Source of the DNA: Bryobacteraceae bacterium CoA2 C42
GTDB lineage: Bacteria; Acidobacteriota; Terriglobia; Bryobacterales; Bryobacteraceae
DNA length: 64,000 bases
NCBI GenBank assembly: GCA_019931245.1
Contig: JAINDL010000082.1
Coordinates: forward strand, 1-64,000
Reading direction: 5' to 3'
The position numbers and the translations under genes are program-made. The notes beneath the pieces were generated by a model that had not been told where the DNA came from, searched no databases, and saw only the letters and a list, made by a program, of their open reading frames with translations. Each line of letters starts with the position of its first letter. Position 1 is the stretch's first letter. This document shows positions 4,766-28,936 of the stretch, piece by piece.

Positions 4766-4911
4766 CAAGTTTTTGCCTGCGTTCGTGTGCGCGGCTAGGG
4801 CACGGATGCCCAAAATGCGCATAGCCGCCACGAAGGGCGTTTTGTATTGAGCCGCTTGCACCGATTCCTCGATTGTACGGTGCTGAGAAGCTGGATGGAG
4901 GCCAGCGGCAG

Positions 4912-7454: not shown

Positions 7455-10400
7455 ATGCCGCTTGAACAACTAACCCCCGGCGCCACCGTCCGCGGCATCC
7501 TGCCCGACACCACCGTCACGGTCGTCAACGTCCAGTGGCACGGTGCCGACGCCCTCACCCTCACCTATCGCGACCCCGCCGGCCGCGTCGCCGAAGAGAT
7601 CCTCTTCCGCCACGACGAACCCCGCCTGGTCCTCATCGACCACGGCCGCCCGTGGAGCTTCGACGGGGATGGCTCCCTCTTCCGTCTCGTCGCCGAAGCC
7701 CAACGCCTCCGCCTCGCCCATCTCTTCGATCCCGTCCTCGCCGTACACACCTCCCTCGTCGAACCCCTCCCCCACCAAATCACCGCCGTCTATGAAGCCA
7801 TGCTGCCCCGCCAGCCGCTTCGCTTCCTCCTCGCCGACGACCCCGGCGCCGGCAAGACCATCATGGCCGGCCTCCTCATCAAGGAACTAATCGCCCGCGG
7901 CGACCTCAAACGCTGCCTCATCGTCTGCCCCGGCAGCCTCGCCGAACAGTGGCAGGATGAACTCCACAAACGCTTCCACCTTCCTTTCGAGATCCTCACC
8001 AATGACAAATTCGAATCCTCCCGCACCGGCAACTGGTTTCTCGAAAACGACCTCGCTATCGCCCGCCTCGACAAACTCTCTCGCAACGAAAACGTCCGCC
8101 AAAAACTAAGCGCTCCCGAAAATCGATACGACCTGGTCGTCTGCGACGAAGCGCACAAGCTCGCCGCCACCTTCTTCGGCGGCGAGGTCAAATACACCAA
8201 ACGATACCAACTGGGCCAACTCGTCTCCGGGCTCACTCGCAACTTTCTGCTCATGACCGCCACGCCCCACAACGGCAAAGAAGAGGACTTCCAACTCTTT
8301 CTCGCCCTCCTCGATGGCGACCGCTTCGAAGGCCGGTTCCGCGACGGCGTCCACCAGATCGACACCACCGACCTGATGCGCCGCATGGTCAAGGAAAACA
8401 TTCTCAAATTCGACGGAACCAAACTCTTTCCCGATCGCATCGCCTACACCGTTCCCTACAAACTCTCTCCCCTTGAGGCACGGCTCTACAAGGAAGTCAC
8501 CGGCTATGTGCGCGAAGAATTCAATCGCGCCGAGGCTCTTGTCAATGACAAACGCGCCGGAACCGTCGGCTTCGCCCTCACCATCCTGCAGCGGCGCCTC
8601 GCCTCCTCGCCCGAAGCGATCTACCAGTCCCTGCACCGGCGCCGCGAACGCCTCGAAAAGCGACTCCGCGAAATGGAACTCCTGCATCGCGGAGCCGCCA
8701 CTCCCGCCCCTCTCATCACCGGCCCCCTGCTCACTCCCGACGACGTCGAAGACCTCGAAGACGCCCCCGAAATCGAAGTCGAAGCCACCGAGCAGGAGGT
8801 CCTCGACCAAGCCACCGCCGCCAGCACCATCGCCGAATTGAAGATCGAGATCCAGACCCTTCTCGGGCTCGAAAACCTCGCCGCCGAGGTGCGCCGTAGC
8901 GGCACGGACACCAAATGGCGCGAACTCTCTCACTTGCTCGGCGAACTCTTCACGCCCTCCTTCGTCGGCTCCCCGCCAGCCGCACCCCTGCCCCCCAGCG
9001 CCCGCCACATCAGCAAGCCGCTACCTTCGCCCCGCCAAAAGCTCGTTCTCTTCACCGAGCACCGCGATACCCTCAACTATCTCGAACGCCAAATCGGCTC
9101 GCTCCTCGGCCGCCCGCAGGCGCTCGTAACCATCCACGGCGGCATGGGGCGCGAGGAACGAAGAAAAGCGCAGGAAAGCTTCCTTCATGACCCCGATGTC
9201 CAAGTCCTCCTCGCCACCGATGCCGCCGGCGAAGGCATCAACCTCCAGCGCGCCCACCTCATGGTCAACTATGATCTGCCCTGGAACCCCAACCGCCTTG
9301 AACAGCGTTTCGGCCGTATCCACCGCATCGGACAAACCGAAGTCTGCCATCTCTGGAACCTCGTCGCCGACGAGACCCGCGAAGGCGACGTCTACCGCCG
9401 CCTGCTCGAAAAACTCGAAGAAGCCCGTGCCGCCCTCGGCGGTCAGGTCTTCGACGTTCTCGGCAAACTCCAGTTCGACGGTCGGCCCCTGCGCGACCTG
9501 ATGATCGAAGCCATCCGCTACGGAGACCTCCCCGAAACCCGCGCCAAGCTCACCCGCGCCCTCGAAGGCGTCAACCGAGAGCAGCTCCAGGCCCTCATTG
9601 ACGACGGCTTCCTCGCCCACGACGTAATGGACTCCAGTCGGGTCGCCCGCATTCGCGAGGAAATGGAGCGGGCCGAAGCTCGCCGCCTCCAACCGCACTA
9701 CGTCGAATCGTTCTTCCTCGAAGCCTTCCGCCGCCTCGGCGGCACGATTCGCGAACGGGAGCCCCGGCGCTACGAACTCACTCACGTACCCGCACCCGTG
9801 CGCCACCGAGATCGCCAAATCGGCGCCGGCGACCCCGTCCTTCCCAAGTACGAACGCATCGCCTTCGAAAAACCGCTCATCGCCCCCCAGGGCCAACCGC
9901 TCGCGGCATTTGTCTGCCCCGGCCACCCGTTGCTCGACGCTGTACTCGACCTCACCCTCGAACGCCAGCGCGACCTCATGAAACGGGGCTCCCTCCTGGT
10001 CGATGACCGCTCCCCCGGCCTCACGCCCCGCCTGCTCTTCGTCCTGGAACACGCCATCACCGACGCCAGCCTCACCCCCGCCGGCGAGCGCCGCACCATC
10101 TCGCGTCGCATGCTCTATGTCGAAATGGACCCCGACGGGAAAGCCCGGCCCCTGCACTACGCCCCCTATCTCGACTATCGCCCTTTGGCTCCCGGCGAGC
10201 CCGACGCCGCAACGCTGCTCGCCCGGCCCGAACTCGCCTGGATCACTCGGGATCTCGAATCCCGGGCGCTTCACCACGCCATCGCCAGCGTCGTGCCCGC
10301 CCATGTCCAGGAGGTGCGCGATCGAAGGCTCGGCTGGATCGCAAAAACCCGCTCCGCCGTCAAGGATCGGCTCACCAAAGAAATCGCCCATTGGGACTAC

Positions 10401-11024
10401 CGCGCCGAGCAACTCCGCCTGCAGGAGCAGGCCGGCAAAGCGGGGGCTCGCCTCAACTCGGGCGAGGCCCGCCGCCGCGCCGACGAAATGCAGTCGCGGC
10501 TCGAACGCCGCCTTGCCGAACTCGACCGCGAAGCGCAGATCGCCGCTCTCCCCCCGGTCGTCGTTGGCGGGGTCGCCATCGTACCCGCCGGACTTCTAGC
10601 GCAAATGGCCGGTCACCAACCAATCGCCCTGAGCGGACCCGTCGACACCCAGGCCAGCGCCGCCCGCGCCCGCGCCATCGTGATGGAGATCGAACGAAGC
10701 CTCGGCTTTGAACCCGTCGACCGCGAACTCGACAAACTCGGCTACGACATCGAAAGCCGCGTGCCCAGCACCGGCAAGCTCCGGTTCCTCGAGGTGAAGG
10801 GCCGGATAGCCGGCGCCGATACCCTCACCGTCACCTACAACGAAATCCGGTACTGCCGCAACAACCCGCAAGACTTTATCCTCGCCATGGTCGAATTCCG
10901 CGACGATGGCACCCACCGCGTGCGCTACCTGCGCGAGCCCTTCCACCGGGAACCGGACTTTAACGCCACCAGCGTCAACTACCATTTCGCCGCGCTGCTC
11001 GACCGCGCCGGGGACCCGTCATGA
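7455..11024 (+). CDS. SNF2-family helicase with C-terminal DUF3883-like domain (defence)
   Basis: An 1189-residue superfamily 2 ATPase. Visible motifs: PLPHQ (104-108), Walker A DDPGAGKT (128-135), DEAH (231-234), TATPHNG (268-274), then ATDAAGEGINLQ and EQRFGRIHRIGQ of the second RecA-like domain. An insertion rich in acidic residues lies between the two domains. The last ~110 residues (GYDIESRV, LRFLEVKGRI, YNEIRYCRNN, ILAMVE) match the DUF3883 pattern, a nuclease-like fold common in defence genes; the E-V-K resembles a PD-(D/E)xK core. Helicases of this build accompany methyltransferases in BREX type 3 (BrxHII) and class 1 DISARM (DrmD). It is the first gene of the locus; the next gene begins 37 bp downstream. 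Confidence 0.88.
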   Translation: MPLEQLTPGATVRGILPDTTVTVVNVQWHGADALTLTYRDPAGRVAEEILFRHDEPRLVLIDHGRPWSFDGDGSLFRLVAEAQRLRLAHLFDPVLAVHTSLVEPLPHQITAVYEAMLPRQPLRFLLADDPGAGKTIMAGLLIKELIARGDLKRCLIVCPGSLAEQWQDELHKRFHLPFEILTNDKFESSRTGNWFLENDLAIARLDKLSRNENVRQKLSAPENRYDLVVCDEAHKLAATFFGGEVKYTKRYQLGQLVSGLTRNFLLMTATPHNGKEEDFQLFLALLDGDRFEGRFRDGVHQIDTTDLMRRMVKENILKFDGTKLFPDRIAYTVPYKLSPLEARLYKEVTGYVREEFNRAEALVNDKRAGTVGFALTILQRRLASSPEAIYQSLHRRRERLEKRLREMELLHRGAATPAPLITGPLLTPDDVEDLEDAPEIEVEATEQEVLDQATAASTIAELKIEIQTLLGLENLAAEVRRSGTDTKWRELSHLLGELFTPSFVGSPPAAPLPPSARHISKPLPSPRQKLVLFTEHRDTLNYLERQIGSLLGRPQALVTIHGGMGREERRKAQESFLHDPDVQVLLATDAAGEGINLQRAHLMVNYDLPWNPNRLEQRFGRIHRIGQTEVCHLWNLVADETREGDVYRRLLEKLEEARAALGGQVFDVLGKLQFDGRPLRDLMIEAIRYGDLPETRAKLTRALEGVNREQLQALIDDGFLAHDVMDSSRVARIREEMERAEARRLQPHYVESFFLEAFRRLGGTIREREPRRYELTHVPAPVRHRDRQIGAGDPVLPKYERIAFEKPLIAPQGQPLAAFVCPGHPLLDAVLDLTLERQRDLMKRGSLLVDDRSPGLTPRLLFVLEHAITDASLTPAGERRTISRRMLYVEMDPDGKARPLHYAPYLDYRPLAPGEPDAATLLARPELAWITRDLESRALHHAIASVVPAHVQEVRDRRLGWIAKTRSAVKDRLTKEIAHWDYRAEQLRLQEQAGKAGARLNSGEARRRADEMQSRLERRLAELDREAQIAALPPVVVGGVAIVPAGLLAQMAGHQPIALSGPVDTQASAARARAIVMEIERSLGFEPVDRELDKLGYDIESRVPSTGKLRFLEVKGRIAGADTLTVTYNEIRYCRNNPQDFILAMVEFRDDGTHRVRYLREPFHREPDFNATSVNYHFAALLDRAGDPS

Positions 11025-11061
11025 ATGCGGCCGCCTTCTCCGCCGTCCCTCAGGTCTTCCC

Positions 11062-11783
11062 ATGCCTGCACTGAAAACCATCCGAAAAACCTTCGACAAG
11101 AACCTGGAGTCAGCCAGACTCCTGTTCGAGGTTGCTACAAAGTTTTCCGATCCCTCGCCCGAAAATCAGCCCGTAGAACCGCCGGTATCGGCCGGCGAGG
11201 CGCGGCGCATCGCGGCGCTTGCCTTTCTGATCATGGTGCGTGCCTGCCAAGAATTCGTGGAGCAGACCCTTATCCGTTACCTTGCTGGGGCAAGCGCTCC
11301 CTCGGGATACCGGCCGACTCTGCTGCACCCCGTAGCCGCCTCGCTCGCGGAGGCTCACCAGCGCGCTGCCGCCCCACCCGACGGACTCGGCGGCGGGCAA
11401 GGCTATCTCTCTGTTTCGAATTGGAACGCCGTACAAAAGTGCGCGCGCCAACGCTTCTCGGAAGGCCATCCGTTTACCCGCCTCACCGGCTCGCAGCAGC
11501 AGCACCTCGCCGCTGCCATCAGGATTCGAAACCGCATTGCCCACTCGTCGCTGAAATGCCGTCGCGAATTCCTCGATGTTGTCAACAAGCATGACCCCGA
11601 CCCAGGCCAACGGCCTCGCGGTTACACCGTGGGCCACCTGCTCCTGAAGATCGGAAATCGCGGGTTCGGAAAAGCCGCCGCTCAGCAGCGATTCTTTCTG
11701 CACTACCATGACCAGTTGGTTGCCATGGCAGACACAATCTGCCCAGCAGCAGCGACCCCGCTGCACAGCCCCGGAGATCCCTC

Positions 11784-11787
<4 letters not shown>
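11062..11787 (+). CDS. HEPN-like protein in defence operon
   Basis: A 241-residue mostly helical protein. Residues 151-163 contain [10 protein letters not shown], where R156 and H161 make the R-x4-H motif of HEPN RNases, and residues 47-72 ([19 protein letters not shown]) resemble the first long HEPN helix. The start at 11062 is preferred because the open frame further upstream lies inside the helicase gene. The gene ends in GTGA, a 4-bp overlap with the GTG start of the methyltransferase, implying translational coupling. HEPN proteins next to defence genes often act as RNA-cutting effectors or their structural relatives; activity here is inference. Confidence 0.6.
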
Positions 11788-14678
<2,891 letters not shown>

Positions 14679-14681
14679 AAG

Positions 14682-17600
14682 ATGGCAATCACTAACCAGG
14701 AACGAATTGGAAAAGCGCTGGAACTGCTCCAGCGTGGTCTCGCTCCCTTCATCAGTCGAGAGATTCATTCCGCCCTTGAATCGGGCCTTCTCCGCCAGGA
14801 AACGTTGCAGCGCTACGTCGATGACCCCATGCTGAACAAGAAACCCATCGGCGAATGGGACGCGGGCGCCCTGCTCAAGGTGACGTGGGACACCTGGAAT
14901 GAGGTCTTCCGTCGCACCTTGGGGCATGCCGAGCGCAGCCTCGTCAGTGAGTTGCGCGAAGTGCGCAACCGGTGGGCCCACCAGCAAGGGTTCCCGAGCC
15001 GTGATGTGGAGCGTGCGATGGACTCCATGGTGCGCCTGCTCAACGCCGTCTCGGCTCCCGCCGAATCCGCCGAAGTGGATCGCATGATGATGGAACTCCG
15101 GCGCCTGACCATCGACGAGCAGATACGCGGGGAAAAGCGCCGAGCCGGCGGCTCGCTCATCGAAGCGGGTCTCACTGGGGCTCTCAAGCCTTGGCGCGAG
15201 ATCGTCGCCCCCCACCCGGACGTTGCCACCGGGCGCTACCAGCAGGCCGAATTCGCCGCCGATCTGTGGCAGGTCCATCTGGGCGAGGGCAGCGACGAGT
15301 ATAAAAAGCCAACCGAATTCTTCCGGCGCACCTTCCTTACGGAAAGCCTCAAGCGCCTCCTGACCAGCGCGGTCGAACGCCTCTCCGGTAAGGGCGGCGA
15401 CCCCGTAGTGCAACTCCAAACCAACTTCGGCGGCGGCAAAACCCATTCCATGTTGGCGCTCTACCATCTCTTCGGCGGGGTAAATCCCGGCGAACTCCCC
15501 GGCGTTGAGGAGATCATGGTGGCGGCCGGCGTGACCAGTCTGCCAACTGCCCGTCGCGTAGTGCTGGTCGGCAACAAGATCTCGCCCGGCAACCCCGTGA
15601 CCAAGGCCGATGGCACCGTCGTCAGAACGCTCTGGGGAGAACTCGCTTGGCAACTCGGCGGCAAAAGCGCCTATGCCCGGATCGCCAAGGACGACGAACA
15701 CGCCACCAGCCCGGGCGATCTCCTCCGCGAACTGATGCGAGAACACGGGCCCAGCCTCATCTTGATCGACGAATGGGTCGCCTACGCGCGACAACTCCAC
15801 GACCAGAGCGACCTCCCCGCGGGCGGTTTCGAGACCCAGTTCAGCTTCGCGCAAGCGCTCACGGAGTCCGCCAAACTCGCCGGTAACTGCCTCCTGGTTG
15901 TCTCGCTTCCGGCCTCCGATACCGCCGGCTCGCCCCACGCCAAAGTTGACGATGTCGAGGTCGGCGGAATCCGTGGACGGGAAGCGCTCGACCGCCTCCG
16001 CAATGTCGTCGGCCGCGTGGAATCCGCCTGGCGTCCTGCCTCCGCCGAAGAGGGATTTGAAATCGTTCGCCGGCGCCTGTTCGAGCCGCTCTCCGGCCCC
16101 GAAGCCTACAAACAGCGCGACGTCATTGCCCGCGCCTTCTCCGACTTGTACCAAACCCAATCGGCCGAGTTCCCGCCGGAATGCCGCACCGCCGACTACG
16201 AAAAGCGCATCGCCGCCGCCTTCCCCATCCACCCGGAGATCTTCGACCGGCTTTACGAAGACTGGTCAACACTGGTCAAGTTCCAGCGCACCCGCGGCGT
16301 CCTCCGGTTAATGGCCGCCGTGATTCACAGTTTGTGGGAAAAAGGCGACCGCAGCCCGCTCATCCTTCCCGCCACGATTCCCATCGACGATACCCGCGTC
16401 CAGTTTGAACTGACACGATACCTGTCGGACAACTGGGTCCCGATTATCGAAAAAGACGTGGACGGACCCGCCTCGTTGCCGCTAAAGATTGACGGCGAAA
16501 TCCCCAATCTGGGCAAGTTGCACGCCACGCGTCGAGTCGCCCGCACCGTCTACCTCGGCTCCGCCCCAACCGCCGGCACGTCGAATCGCGGAATAGAAGA
16601 CCGCCGCGTCAAGCTCGGCTGCGTGATGCCGGGCGAATCCCCTCCCATCTTCGGCGACGCCCTGCGCCGCCTCGCCGCCAAAGCCACTTACCTTTACCAG
16701 GACGGGCCCCGCGTTTGGTACGCTACCCAACCAACCGTAACAAAACTGGCCGATGACCGCGCCGAGCAGTTGAAGCGCGATCCCGATAAAGTCGCCGCCG
16801 AAATCGAAGCGCGGATCAAAGCGGATCTCAAGAGAGGTGGTGGCGACTTCCCTCGCATCCACACCCTGCCGCGCGCCGCCGCCGACGTGCCCGACGATCT
16901 CGATACCCGTCTCGTAGTTCTCTCTCCGGAGTCCGCCTTCAGCAAAGACGAGGGGAACGCCGCCGAAAAAGCGGCGCGCGCCATCCTGGAGTCACGCGGA
17001 AATGCTCCCAGGATCTATCGGAACACCCTTGTCTTTCTCGCTGCCGACAAGGTCCGCCTCCCGGACCTCGAAGAAGCCATCCGCAAGCATCTCGCGTGGA
17101 ACACGATCCTTTCGGAAAGCGCCGCCATCGACCTCACGGTCAACCAAAAAAAGCAAGCGGAGACCCAGCAGCAAGCTGCCGATGCCGCTGTAATCGCTCG
17201 ACTACCAGAAACCTACCAGTGGCTTCTCGCCCCCGAGCAAAAGAGCCCCACCGGACCGGTCGTCTGGAACTCCCTGCGACTGTCCGGTGCCGATCCCTTG
17301 GCCGTCCGAGCTAGCAAGAAACTAAAGAGTGACGACCTCCTCGTAGCCAGCCTCGGATCCACGATCCTGCGCAAGCACCTCGACGAGATACCGTTATGGC
17401 GTGGCGACCATGTGCCGGTGCGGCAGTTAGTGGAAGACTTCGCCAGCTATCTCTACCTGCCCCGCGTGGCGGGGCCGGACGTCTTGTTGCGAGCCATCAG
17501 TGACGGCATCAACCTGCTCCATTGGGACCCGGACAGCTTTGCGTATGCCGAAAGTTTTGACGAAAGTGCATCGCGCTATCGCGCCTTGCGCGCGAACAAA

Positions 17601-18038
17601 TTGATCATGATTGGCCAGCACGATGCGGGCCTGCTGGTAAAGCCAGAGCGGGCGCGGGCGCAATTTGAAGCCGAAACACCGGCGCCCGCGCCGCTGCCGC
17701 CGGCGCCGGATCCCGAACGGCCCCCGTTGCCCGTTCCATTGCCGTCGCGGCCTGCCCCTGCCCCGGGCGCACCTGCCGAACCACCGCCGGCGCCCCTGCG
17801 CCGCCTTCGCCGTTTCTACGGAAGCGTAGCTCTCGCACCTGAGCGAGTCGGCCGGGATGCTGGAAAGATCGCCGAAGAGGTGATTGCTTACCTCGCCGGC
17901 CAGCCTGGCGCGCAGGTCCGCGTTACCTTGGAAATCGACGTCACCCTGCCCGAAGGCGCCAGCGAGCAAACCGTGCGAATCATTACCGAAAACAGCCGCA
18001 CCCTCAAGTTCACTACCTTCGGCTTCGAAGAGTCCTGA
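14682..18038 (+). CDS. Swt1-HEPN / DUF499 AAA-like ATPase (defence)
   Basis: An 1118-residue protein. Residues 1-150 are helical and carry VRNRWAHQ with R95 and H100 in R-x4-H spacing, as in Swt1-type HEPN domains commonly fused to DUF499. The ATPase part has Walker A NFGGGKTHS (248-256) and Walker B LILIDEW (D363, E364). The C-terminus has a proline-rich linker (about 990-1045) and a small beta domain ending EES. DUF499 ATPases are related to BrxC/PglY of BREX, and the DUF1156-DUF499 pairing has been predicted as defence. It starts 3 bp after the methyltransferase, so the two are almost certainly co-translated. Confidence 0.88.
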   Translation: MAITNQERIGKALELLQRGLAPFISREIHSALESGLLRQETLQRYVDDPMLNKKPIGEWDAGALLKVTWDTWNEVFRRTLGHAERSLVSELREVRNRWAHQQGFPSRDVERAMDSMVRLLNAVSAPAESAEVDRMMMELRRLTIDEQIRGEKRRAGGSLIEAGLTGALKPWREIVAPHPDVATGRYQQAEFAADLWQVHLGEGSDEYKKPTEFFRRTFLTESLKRLLTSAVERLSGKGGDPVVQLQTNFGGGKTHSMLALYHLFGGVNPGELPGVEEIMVAAGVTSLPTARRVVLVGNKISPGNPVTKADGTVVRTLWGELAWQLGGKSAYARIAKDDEHATSPGDLLRELMREHGPSLILIDEWVAYARQLHDQSDLPAGGFETQFSFAQALTESAKLAGNCLLVVSLPASDTAGSPHAKVDDVEVGGIRGREALDRLRNVVGRVESAWRPASAEEGFEIVRRRLFEPLSGPEAYKQRDVIARAFSDLYQTQSAEFPPECRTADYEKRIAAAFPIHPEIFDRLYEDWSTLVKFQRTRGVLRLMAAVIHSLWEKGDRSPLILPATIPIDDTRVQFELTRYLSDNWVPIIEKDVDGPASLPLKIDGEIPNLGKLHATRRVARTVYLGSAPTAGTSNRGIEDRRVKLGCVMPGESPPIFGDALRRLAAKATYLYQDGPRVWYATQPTVTKLADDRAEQLKRDPDKVAAEIEARIKADLKRGGGDFPRIHTLPRAAADVPDDLDTRLVVLSPESAFSKDEGNAAEKAARAILESRGNAPRIYRNTLVFLAADKVRLPDLEEAIRKHLAWNTILSESAAIDLTVNQKKQAETQQQAADAAVIARLPETYQWLLAPEQKSPTGPVVWNSLRLSGADPLAVRASKKLKSDDLLVASLGSTILRKHLDEIPLWRGDHVPVRQLVEDFASYLYLPRVAGPDVLLRAISDGINLLHWDPDSFAYAESFDESASRYRALRANKLIMIGQHDAGLLVKPERARAQFEAETPAPAPLPPAPDPERPPLPVPLPSRPAPAPGAPAEPPPAPLRRLRRFYGSVALAPERVGRDAGKIAEEVIAYLAGQPGAQVRVTLEIDVTLPEGASEQTVRIITENSRTLKFTTFGFEES

Positions 18039-19284: not shown

Positions 19285-21510
19285 ATGACGTCACCACATC
19301 CATTCAGTCCAGACCAACCAATCGCCTCAACAAAACAAGATAAGCTCGGTCGCGCGGGCTTTGCGAATAGCATTGCCAACGCAATTATCAATTGGAAGAG
19401 TAACGATTCAAGTTTGACCATCGCCTTATGGGGAGATTGGGGCACCGGCAAGACATCGCTAAAGAACATGGTTCTCGAAAGCCTCAGCTCGCCTCAACAC
19501 CAATCGGCCCCTATACCTATCGTCGACTTCAGTCCCTGGCAGCTTAATAATGAAGATGCGTTAACAAGAGTATTTTTTGACGAGATTGCGCACGCCTTAG
19601 GCAAGGAACGCACGGGCGTCACAGACGGTGATGCCAAGCGCAGCGCGGCACGGCTACGAAAGTTCGGAACGTACTTCCAACTTGGCTCACCGATAGTCCT
19701 GTCAGCCCTTTCACTTTTTTCACCGTACGCGTCGCAGAATAATCTCGACCCCAATGTAATAGCAGCTATCGCGCCAGCGATCGGCCAAGTGGCATCGGCA
19801 GGAAGCGCAATACTTGAGCAAGGGGCAAAAGGCGTCGAAGCCCAAGCGGCCCAAGCTTCTGTCACGCTGAGCGAGCTGAAATCCGAAGTCTCCTCCGCCT
19901 TAAAAACCCTTCCTGGGCCCATTCTAGTTGTAATAGATGACGTCGATCGATTAACCAAAGAAGAGATTCGCCGTATTTTTCAGCTAATCAAAGCCTGTGC
20001 AGATTTCCCCAATCTCATATACATGCTGTTGGGGAGGCGGGACTACATCCTCAATGCACTTGAGTCACTAGCGCCCGGACATTCCAACGAATTCCTTGAA
20101 AAACTGGTTCAAATCGAGCTTCATGTTCCCCATCTACAGCCCCACCATCTAGAAGATCTCGTAATGGCTGGCCTCACTGACATCTTGAAGGATCAGTCTG
20201 TCAAAGATACTTTCGACGAACAACGCTGGACTGCTATGTGGTCTGGTGGCCTTTCCGGTCTCTTCACTAATCTGCGCCAAGTGAACCGCTATCTTTCCAC
20301 TCTTCGCTTCCATACTGCAGTGTTTAAAAGACAGAATGTGTTTGAAGTGAACGCAACGGACCTCTTCGCACTGGAAGCGATTCGCGTCTTCATGCCCTCG
20401 GCCTACGTGGTCCTTCGCAAACACAAACAGCATATAACGGATTATCCCCACACCCTCTCCCAAAATGCCAGTCGCGAAGCCGAAGACGCACTAGCAACAA
20501 TGTCCCAAGCATTCCCGGAGAAGTCTCCCCAGAAAACTCTTCTGCGGGTAATTATGGAACAACTGTTTCCAGTGTTCGGAAGAGCTTCTGTGGAAAGACC
20601 GCAGGACCCTGATTGGTATCGCACGCTACGAATCGCCTCGCACAAAATGTTTGACCTGTATTTCGTCTTCGAAGCACCTTCTGGATCGTTGTCGGAAGAG
20701 CGTTTTCAAAAGATAATCAATGACATCAATCAGTTACAACGCGCCGGGCATATATTACAAGCCCTGAACAGAACAGGGGATTTAGATATTTTTCTTGAAA
20801 AACTGCTTAGTAAGAAACCGCTCCCGGGCATTGCGAATCGGACCAACTTCATTTCCGCCTTAGTGAAAGTTGGAGCCGACCAAGACTCCGCCCAGCCGAT
20901 GATCCCTGCCCGACGGCCCCTGGTCCGCGATGTGGTCGGAAAATACATCGCGACTTTATCCGAAAATGAACTTTTGCAGTCCATCGACACGGTTTTCAGC
21001 TCAACGCTCACCACGCTGACCAAATTGGAGATTTGGCATTACGCCTCACCAAAACCTGATAACGATCTAATTAGCGAACAGGATCTGATTAGAGAACAGA
21101 TAAATATGAAGCTATGCCAATTCCTTGCAAGTGCAGCTGCAACGGACGAGCTCGTAGATTATCAGGCATTGTTTGACCTACCACTAGTGGTTTGGCTATA
21201 TAGAGATCGGGTGAACGCTGCGGCATGGTTACACGAGAAGATCAGATGGAATATTTACTCCATCAAAAGGTTCTTCTCCTATCTTGTTAAGCCAGAGTAT
21301 TCAGATCACTTGGTGTATACCGAAGTCCTGCACCCGCTGGATGATGTCATTTCGATAGACCAGGTTACGGAAAAATTCAATGAGCTGCCACGAATCGAAC
21401 AACACAAATACCGCCATCATTTCGACTATTTCATCGAATTGGCAAGCCGGAAGCAGGGGGCGCATCTCAAGAACTCCGGCGCAACAGACGGCGGTCGAGA
21501 GGCAATGTAG
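19285..21510 (+). CDS. KAP family P-loop NTPase
   Basis: A 741-residue protein. Walker A is GDWGTGKTS (50-58), and the KAP-type VDFSPWQLNN follows about 25 residues later. Walker B is ILVVIDDVDRL (213-223, with D218 and D219). Between them are two hydrophobic stretches (SPIVLSALSLF and VIAAIAPAIGQVASAG), consistent with the membrane-linked insertion known in KAP NTPases. AGAGGAGAG precedes the ATG. KAP proteins occur in phage-exclusion contexts such as PifA. Base composition is visibly more AT-rich and codon use less C-biased than in the helicase gene, suggesting a different origin. It may be a module separate from the upstream methyltransferase unit. Confidence 0.82.
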   Translation: MTSPHPFSPDQPIASTKQDKLGRAGFANSIANAIINWKSNDSSLTIALWGDWGTGKTSLKNMVLESLSSPQHQSAPIPIVDFSPWQLNNEDALTRVFFDEIAHALGKERTGVTDGDAKRSAARLRKFGTYFQLGSPIVLSALSLFSPYASQNNLDPNVIAAIAPAIGQVASAGSAILEQGAKGVEAQAAQASVTLSELKSEVSSALKTLPGPILVVIDDVDRLTKEEIRRIFQLIKACADFPNLIYMLLGRRDYILNALESLAPGHSNEFLEKLVQIELHVPHLQPHHLEDLVMAGLTDILKDQSVKDTFDEQRWTAMWSGGLSGLFTNLRQVNRYLSTLRFHTAVFKRQNVFEVNATDLFALEAIRVFMPSAYVVLRKHKQHITDYPHTLSQNASREAEDALATMSQAFPEKSPQKTLLRVIMEQLFPVFGRASVERPQDPDWYRTLRIASHKMFDLYFVFEAPSGSLSEERFQKIINDINQLQRAGHILQALNRTGDLDIFLEKLLSKKPLPGIANRTNFISALVKVGADQDSAQPMIPARRPLVRDVVGKYIATLSENELLQSIDTVFSSTLTTLTKLEIWHYASPKPDNDLISEQDLIREQINMKLCQFLASAAATDELVDYQALFDLPLVVWLYRDRVNAAAWLHEKIRWNIYSIKRFFSYLVKPEYSDHLVYTEVLHPLDDVISIDQVTEKFNELPRIEQHKYRHHFDYFIELASRKQGAHLKNSGATDGGREAM

Positions 21511-21617
21511 TAACCTTTACGCGCCTTGGTTGTTTCGCTGCGCTCGGAGCAACAAATATAGGTATATACTCGTGACAAGCAGACAGCCAAAGACCACTGC
21601 GCAAGGAGACCTGCAAT

Positions 21618-22262
21618 ATGTCCACCTACGATACCTTTCCCCCATGGAAACGGTTCTTGTCCAAGCGGCAATTCAGTACCGATAATCCCTTCGAAACTCA
21701 ACCGCTCGGCCCTACGCCGGCGTTTCTCTACTCCCAAGCCACGGCGCCGCTCCCGTCGGCCGCAATGGGCGGCATCTGGACGGCGTACCCAACGGTTCAG
21801 AATCTTGCCGCCCACCTTCGCTTTGGCCTACTCCCGCATGAATTCTCCATCTGGCTCTGCCGCACAGAATGGGATCCCAATCCCCGGGAGCCGAAGCTGG
21901 CCGAAGCCATTTTCGAAGGGGCTACCCTCGCGAAAAACGACTACATCGCAGATATTCCGCTCATGCAAGGTATCATTGCCGAGCTGGACCTCGCCATGAA
22001 AGCAACCACTAGGTCGATGGCAACCGCGAAAGTGCGAAAGGCCTGCTCCATGTTCAACAAGCGTTGGGAATCAACCAGAACGTGGGACTTTCTCCACCGG
22101 CCGCTTCCCACTAAGACCGCCCTTCTCAAGGACATCAGATCGAGAGGCTATATACCGGAAGGCGACACCGACGCGCTCATCGCACTTCTGAAACGGCCAC
22201 TGAATACCGCTAAAGAGCAACGCACGCTGCAACAACTGCTGAAGGATTTCCTGGTCTACTAA
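21618..22262 (+). CDS. Hypothetical protein downstream of KAP NTPase
   Basis: A 214-residue protein with a good ribosome binding site (AAGGAG) before the ATG. It contains PTVQNLAAHLRFGLLPHEFS, IWLCRTEWDPN and a helical C-terminal half (LAEAIFEGATLAKNDYIADI, then VRKACSMFNKRWES, LLKDIRSRGYIPEGDTDALI). No family recognised. It lies 107 bp after the KAP gene on the same strand and is the last intact gene of the defence cluster; a role with KAP is only suggested by position. Confidence 0.65.
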   Translation: MSTYDTFPPWKRFLSKRQFSTDNPFETQPLGPTPAFLYSQATAPLPSAAMGGIWTAYPTVQNLAAHLRFGLLPHEFSIWLCRTEWDPNPREPKLAEAIFEGATLAKNDYIADIPLMQGIIAELDLAMKATTRSMATAKVRKACSMFNKRWESTRTWDFLHRPLPTKTALLKDIRSRGYIPEGDTDALIALLKRPLNTAKEQRTLQQLLKDFLVY

Positions 22263-22967
22263 CCCGGTACAGAAACGACCCTCGCGCCGCCGGGTTGCGC
22301 CAAACGAAAACGCTCATCTTGCCGCCCGAGCAATCGCCGCAACCCGGCTTCAACGCTGATGTCTGCCCACACCGACCGTCTATCCCATCGCCAAGCGCGA
22401 ACGCTCCCGCCGGATCGTACCCAAGAATGTCCGTTTCCTCCTCCCGCGTCAGCGCGCTGCCCATCCTCCACCGCCCGCCCCACTCTGCTCTTCGTTACGC
22501 GCCATCGCAAATAACTCCTCCGCCGCCCAGCCAACCTACCCCCGCCGCGGCGCCCCGGGGCCTCGAGCCCCGGGCCACCGCCCTACCCCAACCCGCCTCC
22601 CCAGCCCCTCCCCAACCAGCCGTTCACGTTCCGCGAAGGCTTCTGCCTCCGAGGCTCGTACCGGCTTTCCTCGGGCGCTCCGGTACCAGCGGCATGCAAT
22701 CCCCCTAACAGAAACCTCGGTCTGCGGTTTCGTTCAACGCCCCATCTCTCCACCTTTTGGCGGTCAACGGCCCGCCCCAATCCAGCATTTTCGCGCCAAA
22801 ATGCTGGAGAGATCTTTGTCATTCACAACCAATTACGAAAAATTGTCAACTCCCCCCATCCCACTCATTCCAATACACATAACCCTGAATTTTCACCCTC
22901 CGCCCACCCCGCCCGGAACCGGGTTACCCCTCGCCCATCCCGCACAATCTCCCATGAGAGTCGTCTC
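22263..22967. other. Intergenic region without convincing genes
   Basis: About 700 bp with short overlapping open frames that lack coding character. It contains a GC-rich palindromic stretch (CCCGGGG at 22554 and CCCCGGG at 22568) and the hairpin listed next. I see no transposase remnant or RNA gene. Confidence 0.5.
22782..22807. terminator. Perfect 10-bp-stem hairpin, possible terminator
   Basis: CCAGCATTTT at 22782-22791, a 6-base loop, then AAAATGCTGG at 22798-22807. The stem is perfect and AT-rich at the loop side, with no T-run after it on either strand. It could be a bidirectional terminator between the defence cluster and the terminase genes, or a regulatory or recombination site. Confidence 0.4.
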
Positions 22968-23549
22968 ATGGAAAACCACGAACCACCAGCTCAAAAAAAA
23001 TCCCGCGCGGAACAGGCCCGTCTCAACGGCGCCAAGTCCAAAGGCCCCGTCACCGAGGCCGGTCGCACCCGCTCCTGGCAAGGTCCCCGCAAGCACGGCC
23101 GCTATGCCCGCTCGGAAGCCAAAAGCGTCTCGTTCCTCCTCCGCAACGAAGATCCCGAACAGTTCGCACTCTTCCGCCAGGGTTGGCTCGCCCTGTTCAA
23201 TCCCCAGTGCGACGCCGAACAGGAGTTCCTCGACGGCTTCATCTCGAACGAATGGCGGCTCATCCGCTCCCAGGCCGCGGAAACCGCCCTGCTCAACGAA
23301 GAAATGCGCCAGCGCAAAGCCGCCGTCGATCCCGGCATCCAGCACCTGTCGGCCGGCGTACGGGAACAAACCCGTCTCGGCTTGGCCGTCGCCGGGGCCT
23401 ATACCAATTCGCGAGCCGCCGAAGCCCTCGATCGCAAAATCAACCACCTGCAAAACGCTCGGCTCTCCACCTTGCAGGCGTGGGCCCTCGTGCGCGCGCA
23501 CGTCACGCGCGCGCAAGGAAGAACCCAGGAAAGCGTTGATTCGAAATAA
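22968..23549 (+). CDS. Hypothetical protein associated with terminase genes
   Basis: A 193-residue protein beginning MENHEPPAQKKSRAEQARLN followed by GAKSKGPVTEAGR and ARKHG-like PRKHGRYAR, then a helical body (LFRQGWLALFNPQCDAEQEF, EEMRQRKAAVDPG, AAEALDRKINHLQNARLSTL). Proteins with an NGAKSKGPVT..G..R..N..KHG start are frequent in acidobacteria, often near terminase-like genes; this is recollection, and the function is unknown. The basic N-terminus could bind DNA, and a small-terminase-like role is possible. It lies 92 bp before the terminase ATPase gene. Confidence 0.7.
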   Translation: MENHEPPAQKKSRAEQARLNGAKSKGPVTEAGRTRSWQGPRKHGRYARSEAKSVSFLLRNEDPEQFALFRQGWLALFNPQCDAEQEFLDGFISNEWRLIRSQAAETALLNEEMRQRKAAVDPGIQHLSAGVREQTRLGLAVAGAYTNSRAAEALDRKINHLQNARLSTLQAWALVRAHVTRAQGRTQESVDSK

Positions 23550-23583
23550 CTTCCCGGTTCGGTTCTCCCGTTTACCGATCCCG

Positions 23584-23617
23584 CTAGAACCCAACTAGAA
23601 CCCAACTAGAACCCCAA
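23584..23617. repeat. Three tandem 11-bp repeats before the terminase gene
   Basis: CTAGAACCCAA occurs at 23584 and 23595, then a 12-bp variant with one extra C at 23606. The array sits 24 bp upstream of the terminase ATPase start and could be an operator or merely replication slippage. Confidence 0.6.
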
Positions 23618-23641
23618 CACAACCCAATTGGAACCAAAACC

Positions 23642-24454
23642 ATGTCTCAATGGAGCTTCTTCGAACTCGCGGCCGATCCGGCCGCAGCCGTCTCCGGCGC
23701 CCTCATCCGGGCGCCGGATCCGGAGCCTGCTATCTCGGCCGATCCGGCCGACCTGGCCCGCCAACTCGTCAGCTTTCCGCTCGATCCCGTGCAACTGGAA
23801 ATCCTGCGGTCCCCGGCGCAGTATATCGCCCTGTGCTGCCACCGCCAGTGGGGCAAAACGCAATGCTCCGCGCTCAAAGCGGTCCATCTGGCGCTCCGGC
23901 AGCCCGGCGCGGAAATCATCCTGGTCGCCCCGTCGCTGCGGCAGTCCGGGGCCCTCTTGCGCGCCATGTTCGGCTTCCTGAACACGCTGAAAATCGACGT
24001 CAAGTCCGACGGGCTCAACCGGCTCTCCATGCTGCTGCCCAACGGCTCGCGCATCGTGGCCATACCCAATTCGAGCGATACCGTCCGCGGTTTCTCGAAC
24101 GTCAGCCTCGTCATCATCGACGAAGCCGCCTACGTCCGCGACGAAACCTATCGCGCCGTCTTTCCGTTTCTGGCCGCGTCCAACGGCAAACTGCTCCTGC
24201 TCAGCACCCCGTATGGCCAGCATGGCTTCTTCTATCGCGCCGTCCACGAGCCGGAAAACAACTTCGTCCGCTATCTCGTCCGCGCCTCGGAATCCGGCCG
24301 GTTAACCCCCGATTTTCTCGCCATGGCCCGGCTCGAACTCGGCGACTCCTACGCCCAGGAGTTCGAATGCAGCTTCACCATGGGCGACGAGCAAATCTTC
24401 GATCGCAGCCTCATCGACCAGGCGCTCGATCCCATCATTCAGGCGTTTCGCTAA
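23642..24454 (+). CDS. Terminase large subunit-like, ATPase domain
   Basis: A 270-residue protein with FPLDPVQLEILRSPAQYIAL, then CCHRQWGKTQCSALK as the terminase-type Walker A variant (R-Q-W-G-K-T), VSLVIIDEAAYVRDE as Walker B with catalytic Glu, and KLLLLSTPYGQHGFFYRA as the C motif. It ends near QEFECSF..GDEQIFDRSLID, where the nuclease domain would begin in a full-length terminase; that domain is encoded by the next gene, 20 bp further on. No other phage gene is near, so it is a remnant or a domesticated motor. Confidence 0.85.
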   Translation: MSQWSFFELAADPAAAVSGALIRAPDPEPAISADPADLARQLVSFPLDPVQLEILRSPAQYIALCCHRQWGKTQCSALKAVHLALRQPGAEIILVAPSLRQSGALLRAMFGFLNTLKIDVKSDGLNRLSMLLPNGSRIVAIPNSSDTVRGFSNVSLVIIDEAAYVRDETYRAVFPFLAASNGKLLLLSTPYGQHGFFYRAVHEPENNFVRYLVRASESGRLTPDFLAMARLELGDSYAQEFECSFTMGDEQIFDRSLIDQALDPIIQAFR

Positions 24455-24474
24455 CCGCAAACTCAACAAACATC

Positions 24475-25176
24475 ATGCTGCGACCCCAAACTACCGATTG
24501 CACCCAGCACTACTTCCTCGGGCTCGACCTCGGCAAGCGCGTCGATCGCTCCGCGCTCGCCGTTCTCGAGCTCCACTGGCAGGACCACGGCTTCGACCGC
24601 GTCTGGCACGCACCCCTTCGCCGGCCCGTCGTCCGGCTCATTCGCGCCGACCGTTTTCCGCTCGGCATGCCCTACCTCGATCTGCCGCCCATTCTCGCCG
24701 ATGTGCTCCGCCGGCTCGACCGTCTGCCGCTGCTGCCGGGCAACGCCCCCAAAGCCTACCGGCAGGACCTCGTCGTCGATGCGGCCAACGCGGGCGCCTT
24801 TCTGCTCGAAATCCTCCAAAAACAGCGGCTGCCGGCCGCGCTGGTGCCCGTCTCCATCACGGGCGGCGAGCAGGAAAACCGCCTCGCCGGCGGCATCTGG
24901 TCCGTCCCGCGGCCCATCCTGTTTTCCAATCTCCGCATGCTCTTCGAAGCCGGCACCCTGCGCATCGCCCAGGACCTGCCAGGCTATCGTACCCTCGTCG
25001 AAGAGCTGCTTTCGGCCAAGGCGTCCGGCCCGCAGCGCGCTCACGACGACATCGCCATCGCCGTAGCCCTCGCCGCTTGGCGCGCTGCGCGCGAAATCCC
25101 GGAGTTGCGCCAACCGCATACCCAACGGGCTGCTGCCTCTAAGTTTCTGGTCAATCCAGGCCAGCGAATCATCTGA
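24475..25176 (+). CDS. Terminase large subunit-like, nuclease domain (separate gene)
   Basis: A 233-residue RNase H-fold protein: YFLGLDLGKRVDRSALAVLE supplies the first catalytic Asp, DLVVDAANAGAFLLEIL the middle strand, and AHDDIAIAVALAAWRA the C-terminal acidic pair, as in terminase nuclease domains. The start at ATG 24475 is chosen although the frame is open much further upstream (overlapping the ATPase gene in another frame). The ATPase gene stops cleanly at 24454 in a different frame, so the split is either natural or an old frameshift now stabilised. Confidence 0.78.
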   Translation: MLRPQTTDCTQHYFLGLDLGKRVDRSALAVLELHWQDHGFDRVWHAPLRRPVVRLIRADRFPLGMPYLDLPPILADVLRRLDRLPLLPGNAPKAYRQDLVVDAANAGAFLLEILQKQRLPAALVPVSITGGEQENRLAGGIWSVPRPILFSNLRMLFEAGTLRIAQDLPGYRTLVEELLSAKASGPQRAHDDIAIAVALAAWRAAREIPELRQPHTQRAAASKFLVNPGQRII

Positions 25177-25186
25177 AGGAGTTACC

Positions 25187-28100
25187 ATGCGTCCGCTTCT
25201 TCTGGCCTTCACCGCCGTCACGTTACTCTCCGCGCAGTCCACCGATGGACTCATCTCCGGCGCCGTCCGGGATCCCAGCGGCGCCATCGTCCCCGGCGCC
25301 CGGCTCGAAATCAGCAACGCCAACACCGGCGTCACCACCCGCGCGGAAAGCAACGCCCAGGGTATCTACTCCTTCCCTGCCCTCGCGGTCGGCCAGTACC
25401 GCATCGCGGCCTCCCATCCCGGCTTCCAAACCAGCGTCCTCGCCAACGTCCGCCTCGACGTCGGCGCGCGCCTCGCCCTGGACTTCACCCTCGAAGTCGC
25501 CGCCGCCGGCCAAAGCGTCGAAGTCGTCGCCGAAGCCAGGCTCGATCTCGCCTTCGCCACCTCCTCGGTCGGCGGCGTCCTCACCGAGAAAAAGATCCTC
25601 GACCTGCCGCTCACCAGCCGCAACGCCATCCTGTTCGCCACCACGCAAGCCGGCACCTTCGGCGACTACTTCAGCGGCGCCCGCATCGGCACCCTCAATA
25701 TCCAGGTCGACGGCGTCAACATCCAGGACGCCCGCATCAACCAGGGCCGTTCCACCCCGTTCTTCCTCTCCACGGACCGCGTCGCCGAGTTCCGCGTCGT
25801 CACCTCGCCCGCCGACGCCGAATACGGCCGCGGCAGCGGACAAATCCAGATGATCACGCGCTCCGGCACCAACGATCTCCACGGCAGCCTCTTCGAGTTC
25901 CATCGCAATACCGTCCTCAACGCCAATACCTGGTTCAACAACTTCCAGGGCAGCAACGCCAGCGGCGCGCCCATCGCGCCCCGCAACTTCCTCATCCGCA
26001 ACCAGTACGGCGCCCGCGCCGGCGGTCCCGTCGTCCTCCCCAAACTCTACAACGGCAAAAACCGGACCTTCTTCCACTTCCTCTGGGAAGCCGAACGCAT
26101 CGCCCAGCGCAATCGCGTCACCCGCACCGTCTATACCGATTCCGCCCGCCGCGGCCTCTACCGCTTCTTCCCGGGCGCCCAAAACGCCAACGCCACCGCC
26201 AATATCCCCGTCGTCGATTTCCAGGGCAACCCGGCCGCCCCACGGACCGCCACCGGCCCCTTAAGCAGCGTCAACGTCTACGCGGTCGACCCCCTGCGCA
26301 GCCGCCCCGACCCCAGCGGCGCCGTCCAGCAGATGCTCGGCCTCATGCCCCTGCCCAACGTCTTCAACGTGGGCGACGGCCTCAACACCGCCGGCTACGC
26401 CTGGATCCAACCCGCCAACTCGCGCCGCGACCAGTACAACCTCAAACTCGATCACAACTTCAACGACCGCCATCGCCTCAGCTTCAGTTGGAATCGCGAA
26501 GACAGCCTCAGCATCAACGGCTTCCAAAGCCAGCGCTTCCCCAACTCGCCCGGCGGCAACGTCGACTCCCCCGATAGCGTCTACAGCCTCAAACTCTTCT
26601 CCGTCCTGCGCCCGAACCTCCTCAACGAGTTCACCGCCGGCGTACTCCGTAGCCGCTCCCGCAGCCTCGCGCCCTGGGAAGTCCCCGGCGGTCTCGCCGC
26701 CCTGCCCAAAGTCAACGGCCAGCCCTACCTCCTCGACCTGCTCACGGTCACCGATCCCATCCTCGTCGATAACGACCCCCAGGGCCGCATCTCGCCCAAC
26801 TACCAGTGGAGCGATACCATCTCCTGGCTCCAAGGCAAACACAACATCCGCGCCGGCGGCGGCGTCTGGTTCGTCTCCTCGAACGGCTTCAACTCCTTCG
26901 ACGTCATGCCCCGCGTCGTCCTCGGCAACGGCATCCAACCCGTGCAGAACATGGGCGCCGTCGCCGGCCTCGGCGTCAATCGAGGCGGCGCCGAAAACCT
27001 GCTCAACAACCTGGCCGGGTCCATCAGCACCGTCTCCCAGGCCGTCAATGCGCCCGGCGGGTCCAACCCTCAGTTCCTGCCCGGCGAGTATAAGCAGCGC
27101 ACCTGGAAAAATCAGGAGTACTTCCTCTTCTTCAAAGACGACTACCGCCTGTCGAAAAACACGACCCTCAACCTTGGCCTCCGCTACGAGTACTTCAGCG
27201 TTCCCTACGACCCCAACGGCAAGACCGCCGGCCTCGCCGGCGGCGGCGGCTCCCTCTTCGGCATCTCCGGCCGCGACTACTCGGCCATGTTCCGCCCCGG
27301 CGCCACCGGCGGCGCCCTCACGCAGGTCGAACTCATCGGCCCCGGCTCGGCCAATCCCTCGCGCCAGCTCTTCCGCCCGGACCGCAACAACCTCTCGCCG
27401 CACATCGGCCTCAGTTGGGCCCCGTCCTGGCTCGGCGCCAATAAGACCATCCTGCGCCTCGGCTACAGCATGGGCTATGAACGCACGGCCCTCCGCCTCA
27501 TCGACGTCGTCAGCGGCGACCAGCCCGGCCTGCGTGAACTCGTCGTCCAGCGCCCCGGCGCCTATACGCCCCTCGGCGCGCTATCGCTCCCGCTCCGGCC
27601 CAACGGCCGGCCTCTCGATACCGTCCCCTTCACCGACCGCGCCCAAACCGTCCGCGGCTTTGAAGACAACCTCCGCACCCCCTACGTGCAGAACTTCAAC
27701 GTCAGCCTCCAACGCGCGCTGCCCGCCAGCCTCCTGCTCGACGTCCGCTACGTCGGCAACAAAGGCACGCGCCTCATGCGCACCACCAACCTGAACGAAG
27801 TGAACGTCTTTGAAAACGGCTTGCTCCAGGCGTTCCTCGCCGCCCAGCGCGGCGGCGAATCCCCTCTGCTCGACCGTATCTTCCAGCCGCTCCGCGGCAA
27901 CGCCTCCGGCGCGGCCTTCGCCCGGACCAACGCCACGCTCCAATCGCATCTCGCCAATAACAACGTCGGCTCCTTCGCCAACTTCATCAATACGCAAAAC
28001 GTCGGCGGCCGCAACGGCGGCCTGCTCCCGCTCGCCGGCCTGCCCGAAAACTTCTTCGTCGTCAACCCTCAGTTCTCCGGCGCCCAACTCGTCGGCAACT

Positions 28101-28936
28101 ACGCCAACTCCAGCTATCACTCCTTCCAGGTCGATCTGTCGAAGCGCTTTGCAAGCGGCATCTCCATGCAGATGAACTACACCTGGGCCAAGGCCCTCGG
28201 CGAAGAGGAAGGCGCCGGCCAGAGCCTGCTCGACAGCTACCGCACCAACCGCAACCGCCGCCTCGACAAGCGCCAACTCTCCTTCGGCGCGCCCCACGTC
28301 TTCCGCTCCAACTGGATCTGGAACCTGCCCATCGGACCCAAGCGCCGGCTGCTCGGCAACACCCGCGGCTGGGCCGGCCGCCTGCTCGAAAACTGGCAGG
28401 TCGGAGCACTCTATAACGCCTTCTCAGGCACCCCCATGAGCTGGGAGAGCGAGATCGCCTCCTTCAGCCAGGTCTCGGACGATACCAGCGTCGACGCCAT
28501 CGCCGGCGTCGCGCGGCAGGGCCAGGTCACCAAACGCGGCAACGGCGTCTTCTTCTACCCCGGCTACACCGTCGGGCCGGACCCGCAGGTCCGCCAGCTG
28601 ACCACCACGGGCGGCGTCCAACAGCGCAGCACACTCCTGGCCGTCTTCGATGCAAGCGGCCGGCCCATCGCCACCAACCCCGCGCCGGGCACCCTGGGCG
28701 CCCTGCAACCGCGCTTCTTCTACGGCCCCGGCTACTTCGCCTTCGACCTCAACCTGCTGAAGACCTTCACCATCCGCGAAGGCATCCAGTTCCAACTCGG
28801 CGTCACCGCCGACAACATCACCAACACGCCAGCCTTTGAAGACCCCGACATTGTGATCAACTCGCCGACCTTCGGCCAGATCAGCAGCGCCGGCGGCAAC
28901 CGCATCGTCATCCTCAGCGGCCGCCTGACCTTCTAG
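25187..28936 (+). CDS. TonB-dependent-receptor-like outer membrane protein
   Basis: A 1249-residue protein. The signal peptide MRPLLLAFTAVTLLSA is followed by a carboxypeptidase-regulatory-like domain (about 20-115), a plug-like domain (LNIQVDGVNIQDARINQG, QIQMITRSGTNDLHG) and a long barrel ending in GRLTF. AAGGAG precedes the ATG. It begins 10 bp after the terminase nuclease gene in the same direction, but the functions are unrelated. It shares its stop region with the convergent esterase gene. Codons end mostly in C, as in the receptor at 217. Confidence 0.9.
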   Translation: MRPLLLAFTAVTLLSAQSTDGLISGAVRDPSGAIVPGARLEISNANTGVTTRAESNAQGIYSFPALAVGQYRIAASHPGFQTSVLANVRLDVGARLALDFTLEVAAAGQSVEVVAEARLDLAFATSSVGGVLTEKKILDLPLTSRNAILFATTQAGTFGDYFSGARIGTLNIQVDGVNIQDARINQGRSTPFFLSTDRVAEFRVVTSPADAEYGRGSGQIQMITRSGTNDLHGSLFEFHRNTVLNANTWFNNFQGSNASGAPIAPRNFLIRNQYGARAGGPVVLPKLYNGKNRTFFHFLWEAERIAQRNRVTRTVYTDSARRGLYRFFPGAQNANATANIPVVDFQGNPAAPRTATGPLSSVNVYAVDPLRSRPDPSGAVQQMLGLMPLPNVFNVGDGLNTAGYAWIQPANSRRDQYNLKLDHNFNDRHRLSFSWNREDSLSINGFQSQRFPNSPGGNVDSPDSVYSLKLFSVLRPNLLNEFTAGVLRSRSRSLAPWEVPGGLAALPKVNGQPYLLDLLTVTDPILVDNDPQGRISPNYQWSDTISWLQGKHNIRAGGGVWFVSSNGFNSFDVMPRVVLGNGIQPVQNMGAVAGLGVNRGGAENLLNNLAGSISTVSQAVNAPGGSNPQFLPGEYKQRTWKNQEYFLFFKDDYRLSKNTTLNLGLRYEYFSVPYDPNGKTAGLAGGGGSLFGISGRDYSAMFRPGATGGALTQVELIGPGSANPSRQLFRPDRNNLSPHIGLSWAPSWLGANKTILRLGYSMGYERTALRLIDVVSGDQPGLRELVVQRPGAYTPLGALSLPLRPNGRPLDTVPFTDRAQTVRGFEDNLRTPYVQNFNVSLQRALPASLLLDVRYVGNKGTRLMRTTNLNEVNVFENGLLQAFLAAQRGGESPLLDRIFQPLRGNASGAAFARTNATLQSHLANNNVGSFANFINTQNVGGRNGGLLPLAGLPENFFVVNPQFSGAQLVGNYANSSYHSFQVDLSKRFASGISMQMNYTWAKALGEEEGAGQSLLDSYRTNRNRRLDKRQLSFGAPHVFRSNWIWNLPIGPKRRLLGNTRGWAGRLLENWQVGALYNAFSGTPMSWESEIASFSQVSDDTSVDAIAGVARQGQVTKRGNGVFFYPGYTVGPDPQVRQLTTTGGVQQRSTLLAVFDASGRPIATNPAPGTLGALQPRFFYGPGYFAFDLNLLKTFTIREGIQFQLGVTADNITNTPAFEDPDIVINSPTFGQISSAGGNRIVILSGRLTF

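Follow-up and report, generated by a model that had tools for sequence, protein, structure and literature searches.

DNA-packaging terminases are usually read as the mark of a phage, a prophage, a phage satellite or a gene transfer agent. Phage satellites such as the PICI, cfPICI and P4-like elements carry packaging genes without virion genes, and gene transfer agents keep portal, capsid and tail genes. In tailed phages the large terminase subunit (TerL), for example T4 gp17, combines an ATPase and an RNase H nuclease domain; the same domains, with their motifs, are encoded by two adjacent genes, here named B and C, that we describe together with a third gene, A, in an acidobacterial chromosome. 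The nearest phage records are those of Thermus phage Riverbug and Meiothermus phages MMP17 and MMP7, to which B is 36-38% identical over 80% of its length. TerL is a single gene both in Riverbug, where TerS and portal follow, and in MMP17, where an unnamed gene and a Mu gp29-like gene follow, whereas at the locus studied here the ATPase and the nuclease are separate, the partner is A, and no structural gene was recognised.

Two virus-derived protein families, PHROG 7579 and PHROG 27743, are matched separately by B and C; their members were collected from viruses, in contrast to the genes described here, which belong to a chromosome, occur in several copies and are linked to A. Phage satellites, PICMI among them, resemble the locus in having packaging genes without virion genes, and recombinase and primase genes are found close to some relatives of B and C in other phyla. 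Unlike these elements, the window cassette has no recognised integrase or primase beside it, and its orthologues stay in place across species. Gene transfer agents embody the same idea of a terminase kept by the cell for DNA transfer, but the two portal families that we searched for are absent from the source genome.

Table 1 of Eichorst et al. 2018 (PMC5900883) gives Terminase LSU genes without capsid or portal genes for Solibacter usitatus (2) and Bryobacter aggregatus (1), and all three gene types for KBS 96, a third subdivision 3 genome; that study takes one virion gene as a sign that a prophage is likely active. Any kinship of those terminases with B is putative. Challacombe et al. 2011 report no intact prophage region in Solibacter, and a 2024 review treats terminase genes as a sign of phage-mobilised elements. 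A literature search found no paper on orphan, stand-alone or solitary terminases. The present results bear on the annotation of terminase genes in acidobacterial genomes, which the survey of PMC5900883 counted toward likely active prophages.

Organization of the cassette and its surroundings

The window, by which we mean the whole stretch of DNA analysed, comprises 64,000 nucleotides of contig JAINDL010000082.1 of Bryobacteraceae bacterium CoA2 C42 (GCA_019931245.1). Its relevant features are as follows.

7455..18038, + strand: HmaABC defence system, farther upstream of the cassette, GC 57-68% in 1-kb bins (context)
19285..22262, + strand: PifA-like KAP NTPase gene and a 214-aa gene, a low-GC stretch 5' of A (context)
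22564..22583, + strand: box 5' of the leader motif, present in 10 of 66 A loci
22820..22849, + strand: leader motif (TTCACA, then an A/T run), 148 bp ahead of A; it also precedes unrelated genes
22968..23549, + strand: gene A, constant companion of B, a helical protein of 193 aa with a KSxGPxT motif at its N terminus
23642..24454, + strand: gene B, 270 aa, TerL ATPase
24475..25176, + strand: gene C, 233 aa, TerL RNase H-type nuclease
25187..28936, + strand: outer-membrane receptor gene, 1249 aa, OMP_b-brl_4/CarboxypepD_reg (context)

A, B and C are three co-directional open reading frames with the coordinates and layout of the initial annotation, whose basic KSKGPVT protein ahead of the terminase genes is A. 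The stop codon of C lies 10 bp before the ATG of the receptor gene, as had been described. This neighbour is unremarkable, because the source genome contains at least 65 OMP_b-brl_4 receptor genes of its own, and it is common only to the orthologous loci of G010 and G016. Upstream, HmaABC is complete (PADLOC HmaA, HmaB and HmaC, E 0 each), and the KAP NTPase at 19285-21510 matches PADLOC PifA (3.7e-64); the adjacent 214-aa gene (21618-22262) has no convincing family match. Since the gene set recurs at dozens of loci, a chance origin is excluded. Flanking gene lists are approximate, as the gene caller was a simple codon-score script, and toxin-antitoxin or AlpA-like names of unscanned genes were assigned by eye only. 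The genomes are mostly MAG-like assemblies, often broken at these genes.

Two halves of a packaging terminase

Gene B matches Terminase_6N in Pfam (PF03237, E 2.7e-8) and the terminase large subunit family PHROG 7579 (7.8e-39), and as a 21-row profile it matched the solved TerL ATPases 4zni (3.2e-22) and T4 gp17. The motifs RQxGK, DEAA and S-x-P are invariant across the 21 rows (R68, Q69, G71, K72, D160, E161, A162, A163, S188 and P190), giving B the Walker A, Walker B and coupling motifs of a terminase ATPase. Gene C matches PHROG 27743, a family of unknown function (2.3e-19), and as a 34-row profile the solved TerL nuclease 5m1f (7e-15). Its AlphaFold model is mixed alpha/beta with an RNase H-like order (mean pLDDT 85). 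Residues D18, D102, E177 and H190 are invariant in 20 rows of C, and G16, D18, G20, A27, D102, G107 and D192 in 34 rows that include archaea; C has the RNase H fold and catalytic acidic residues of such nucleases, in a gene of its own. Each of B and C is one catalytic half of a packaging terminase, and the domain matches and invariant motifs bear out the earlier description of Walker A, Walker B and an RNase H-like nuclease split over two genes.

The two genes occupy separate reading frames, with 20 bp between them. The same pair of intact genes is present in five sister species; in a sixth, G001, C likewise has a frame of its own, but its match ends early. A frameshift was rejected as the cause of the split, because relatives have intact separate genes and the split is common in the family. 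The tree of B, built from 105 domains, has 57 split rows, 36 fused rows and 12 without C; 31 of the 36 fused rows sit in one clade of 33, and the split form extends to archaea and Planctomycetota. This tree was midpoint-rooted and does not give the ancestral state, split or fused. At three loci (L221, L224 and L231) a single TerL ATPase gene lies close to four or five RNase H-type nuclease genes that are paralogues of one another.

Distribution and selection

All 19 genomes of the genus that were searched contain B, with 2-20 matches each and 154 in total (E 1e-5, fragments included). Outside the genus, B matched 3 of 18 genomes from other genera of the same family, and of 24 more distant genomes 6 gave a weak single match. 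The window copy and its six orthologues form one group with full support in the tree. Other groups too have members from several species, as is expected from old duplications with vertical descent.

Between orthologues, dN/dS (NG86) was 0.03-0.29 for B, 0.10-0.36 for C and 0.09-0.49 for A, and below 0.5 in all 57 ortholog pairs compared; the set held seven orthologues, or six for C, from which the G001 gene was left out as its match ends early. A, B and C orthologues are under purifying selection. Both checks proposed by the initial annotation came out positive, the A-B-C set being conserved at many loci and under purifying selection.

Gene A, the constant partner

Gene A had no match in Pfam or NCBIfam, and its PHROG matches were only at E 0.1 and 0.32. 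Its predicted model is all-helical (pLDDT 78, pTM 0.62) and found no match at E 0.001 in the PDB and viral fold libraries, on which ground a known fold was rejected for A. Neither sequence and profile searches nor fold searches related A to a small terminase subunit. Its link to B is nevertheless close. In 58 genus loci with B, a chosen subset to be set against the 154 matches counted in the genus, 40 have A upstream of B and co-oriented with it; in 17 the contig breaks off no more than 1.2 kb from B, and the single locus without A is a B fragment. With those 17 set aside, A is 5' of B at 40 of the 41 genus loci that could be tested. Across all taxa, 80 named loci comprise 31 with A in the direction of B, 8 with A opposed to it and 41 at which no A was seen.

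Genes for A alone are common. Six genomes had 16-39 A matches each, most A genes are without B and C, and A was present in 95 of 299 genomes of the class (at most 9 or 10 candidates being scored in most of these genomes). Some A-only loci are orthologous between species. At one such pair, L275 and L284, 4.2 kb around the gene are 99.5% identical, while the window-type B proteins of the two genomes are about 80% identical; this near-identity reflects either recent transfer or mixed bins.

Phage genes near the cassette and in relatives

A PHROG scan of five neighbouring window genes recognised no structural phage gene, and the portal families PF04860 and PF06074 are both absent from the source genome. 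Of ten genus genomes, with 92 B matches, two had PF04860 above the cut-off, with one further fragment falling short of it, and one had PF06074; none of these portals was near any listed B copy. On G009 contig 33, which holds both a portal and a B copy, some 47 kb separate the two, and on G009 contig 43 a Mu-type portal adjoins a fused TerL, as in a normal prophage. The PF04860 portal genes at L349 (G009 contig 33) and L351 (G004 contig 52), in the same genus, are likely true prophage pieces. As far as the two portal families and five window neighbours go, there is neither the portal, capsid or tail gene near the terminase that marks a prophage nor the cluster of terminase with portal, capsid and tail that marks a gene transfer agent. 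The integrase and replication module of a phage satellite was not recognised beside the window copy, and no integrase or replication gene was recognised among nine proteins upstream of two other copies.

The initial annotation had called the locus a stand-alone terminase without a phage, and this holds for the two portal families and the five neighbours. It had named a full prophage at this site in relatives as the finding that would speak against it; no prophage was recognised in the gene lists of the seven orthologous loci (the PHROG scan covering the five window neighbours), and in five more distant members of the genus (G003, G004, G014, G015 and G018) the 16-19 kb at the syntenic site contain none of A, B and C. 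A prophage remnant was rejected in view of the purifying selection, of the missing portal and structural genes (two portal families, five window neighbours) and of these syntenic sites without the cassette, and a decaying prophage is an unlikely origin for the cassette. The suggestion of a gene-transfer remnant is not supported, given that the cassette has kept its catalytic residues and that orthologues hold their sites across species. In viral contigs B found matches at 45 loci (24-39% identity); A and C found no match there or in the phage collection.

B and C also adjoin each other in members of other phyla, with recombinase genes at a distance of 3-12 kb and primase genes in the vicinity: Zavarzinella (L257), Bradyrhizobium (L259), a deltaproteobacterium (L261 and L262), Thermoleophilia (L270) and Methanoregula (L272). 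A short gene before B in these elements has no family match; we would guess that it encodes TerS. A tape-measure-like gene is present at L263 and a head-morphogenesis-like fragment at L271, and the view that the foreign relatives are capsid-free satellites throughout was rejected on account of these phage structural pieces. A link by descent with satellite-like or phage elements, in either direction, is plausible. On present sequence evidence, the best explanation of A-B-C is a working terminase module in a chromosome without recognised phage structural genes.

Variable DNA on the 5' side of A

The new observation here is that the cassettes tend to border variable, often low-GC DNA, with the 5' end of A facing it. 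Over 5 kb, window GC is 54.7% upstream and 65.5% downstream; the low-GC part (49-55%) consists of the PifA-like KAP gene and its neighbours, the Hma genes being at 57-68%. At 19 of the 23 loci compared, GC was lower upstream than downstream (mean difference -5.3 points; Wilcoxon test, 9e-5), a test from which 12 loci with short flanks were dropped and whose p values are optimistic, as the loci are partly orthologous. Of the four loci without the asymmetry, one, L160, is not a collinear cassette. As a control, 120 other genes of the same neighbourhoods showed no bias (47.5% lower upstream, mean +0.5). In a second set of loci upstream GC was lower in 7 of 8, or in 6 of 7 new ones, L168 being the same locus as L066. 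The figure was 1 of 4 for loci with A reversed and 9 of 21 for B loci without A.

The contents of this side vary even between orthologous copies of a cassette. The G017 orthologue has DndB and an AAA gene there (GC 50-53%), and a copy on G017 contig 27 is accompanied by type I restriction genes together with a Schlafen-AlbA gene. A different cassette, in three orthologous copies, adjoins glycosyltransferase or polysaccharide genes (5 of 7 scanned proteins), in sets that differ in size and order. The earlier placement of the genes in a defence island is therefore right in part: it suits PifA-like and Hma genes in the window, DndB-AAA in G017 and type I restriction elsewhere, and does not suit the three copies beside glycosyltransferases.

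Leader and borders of the conserved segment

The leader of A keeps a TTCACA-type motif followed by an A/T run. A weight matrix scored 60 of 65 leaders, a circular figure as the matrix was fitted on the same leaders. When 20 assembled neighbourhoods (1.24 Mb, both strands) were scanned with it, 15 matches exceeded 12, of which 12 lie 5' of A and three inside cassettes before B or C. A genome-wide search with the motif pattern gave 35 matches in six genomes, and its reversed form gave 1. Only 11 of 30 motif loci inspected had A or B, and 19 had none of A, B and C; the motif also precedes unrelated genes and so is not specific to A-B-C, and an exclusive end or attachment site was rejected. The palindromic box was likewise rejected as a general end, since it is at only 10 of the 66 loci. 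In one subgroup of A a hairpin before the start codon was seen by eye.

Paralogues of A within a genome have A and a leader of about 100-280 bp in common. In nine such pairs similarity ends within 10 bp of the A stop codon, in A-B pairs of G003 near the B stop and in one A-B-C pair at the C stop. A strict mobile cassette is not supported, because in several pairs similarity continues 70-105 bp past the A stop. Orthologue pairs are usually collinear for kilobases on the downstream side, and in most the alignment stops 80-265 bp before A. The strong cases are two: against G010 and G016 the window is 94% identical downstream and homology stops at -146, the motif being at -148; L252 and L273 are 92% identical downstream, with homology ending near -172. 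For G010 and G016 homology resumes farther left over some 100 bp, beyond an extra 200 bp or so, and the difference at the motif is therefore partly an insertion of about 200 bp. L061 and L062 align to -458 and L275 and L284 to -1196, well past the leader. Both this resumption and these longer alignments speak against a clean exchange at the motif. In distant pairs the end of alignment could come from ordinary non-coding drift. Downstream genes at this locus also differ between clades.

Possible function

Here both predicted terminase activities are kept under selection, in several copies, with no packaging partners recognised nearby, which suggests that the cell has put a packaging machine to its own use. 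Our leading interpretation, to which we give a probability of roughly 0.3, is that A-B-C processes or mobilises the adjacent island, A recognising a site in or near its leader and B and C cutting and translocating DNA on the island side. A would act as a small terminase subunit that binds a site in or near its own leader, C would cut at that site, and B would translocate the DNA of the island, the putative substrate. The island might be processed or mobilised in the manner of lateral transduction, a helper phage lending the capsids. Once transfer has taken place, the conserved side of the cassette could serve as homology for recombination, by which the island would be exchanged and the cassette would stay. 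Such a module is a possible motor behind island turnover. The broader idea of a capsid-free cellular terminase as the fixed end of island exchange, with defence, restriction and surface-polysaccharide islands swapped beside it at several places per genome, we regard as distinctly unlikely.

The main competing explanation, a doubtful one that we nonetheless take seriously, is a defence nuclease: A-B-C would sense, cut or reel in invading phage DNA and would cluster with defence genes. The intact nuclease and ATPase agree with this, as do the neighbouring genes at three loci (PifA-like and Hma, DndB-AAA, type I restriction), but no PADLOC defence family matched A, B or C at E 0.01, three orthologous copies adjoin glycosyltransferases instead, and many vertically kept paralogues per genome would be atypical of defence genes. 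Dispersed, partly very similar copies within one genome, together with the recombinase and primase genes near B and C in other phyla, would suit a packaging module of a still-mobile phage satellite that uses helper phages and whose integrase and replication genes are lost or elsewhere. This is unlikely, as orthologous copies hold their position across species, no integrase or primase was recognised beside the window copy, and the phage structural pieces in two foreign relatives mean that not all of these are satellites. It is also improbable that A-B-C is a passive resident with an unrelated housekeeping job, surviving in variable regions that collect non-essential genes, its polarity being that of the promoter side. 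That view accommodates the leader motif at unrelated genes and the A-only copies that far outnumber A-B-C; against it, the 120 control genes of the same neighbourhoods have no GC asymmetry. Processing or mobilisation of the island by A-B-C remains the reading that we prefer.

Repeats and duplications

RAYT-REP pairs are a precedent for repeats made by an enzyme. A comparable role for the terminase in making repeats was rejected, as exact repeats are sparse. One A gene, at L249 (4057-5064), carries an insert that consists of a roughly 97-bp dispersed repeat in multiple copies. At L066 of G012, a tandem duplication (4354-5062, 95% identical) covers the end of B and the start of C. Within the window, a 239-bp tandem duplication at 33972-34475 (94.6% identical) results in a short partial copy of the gene at 32844-34115.
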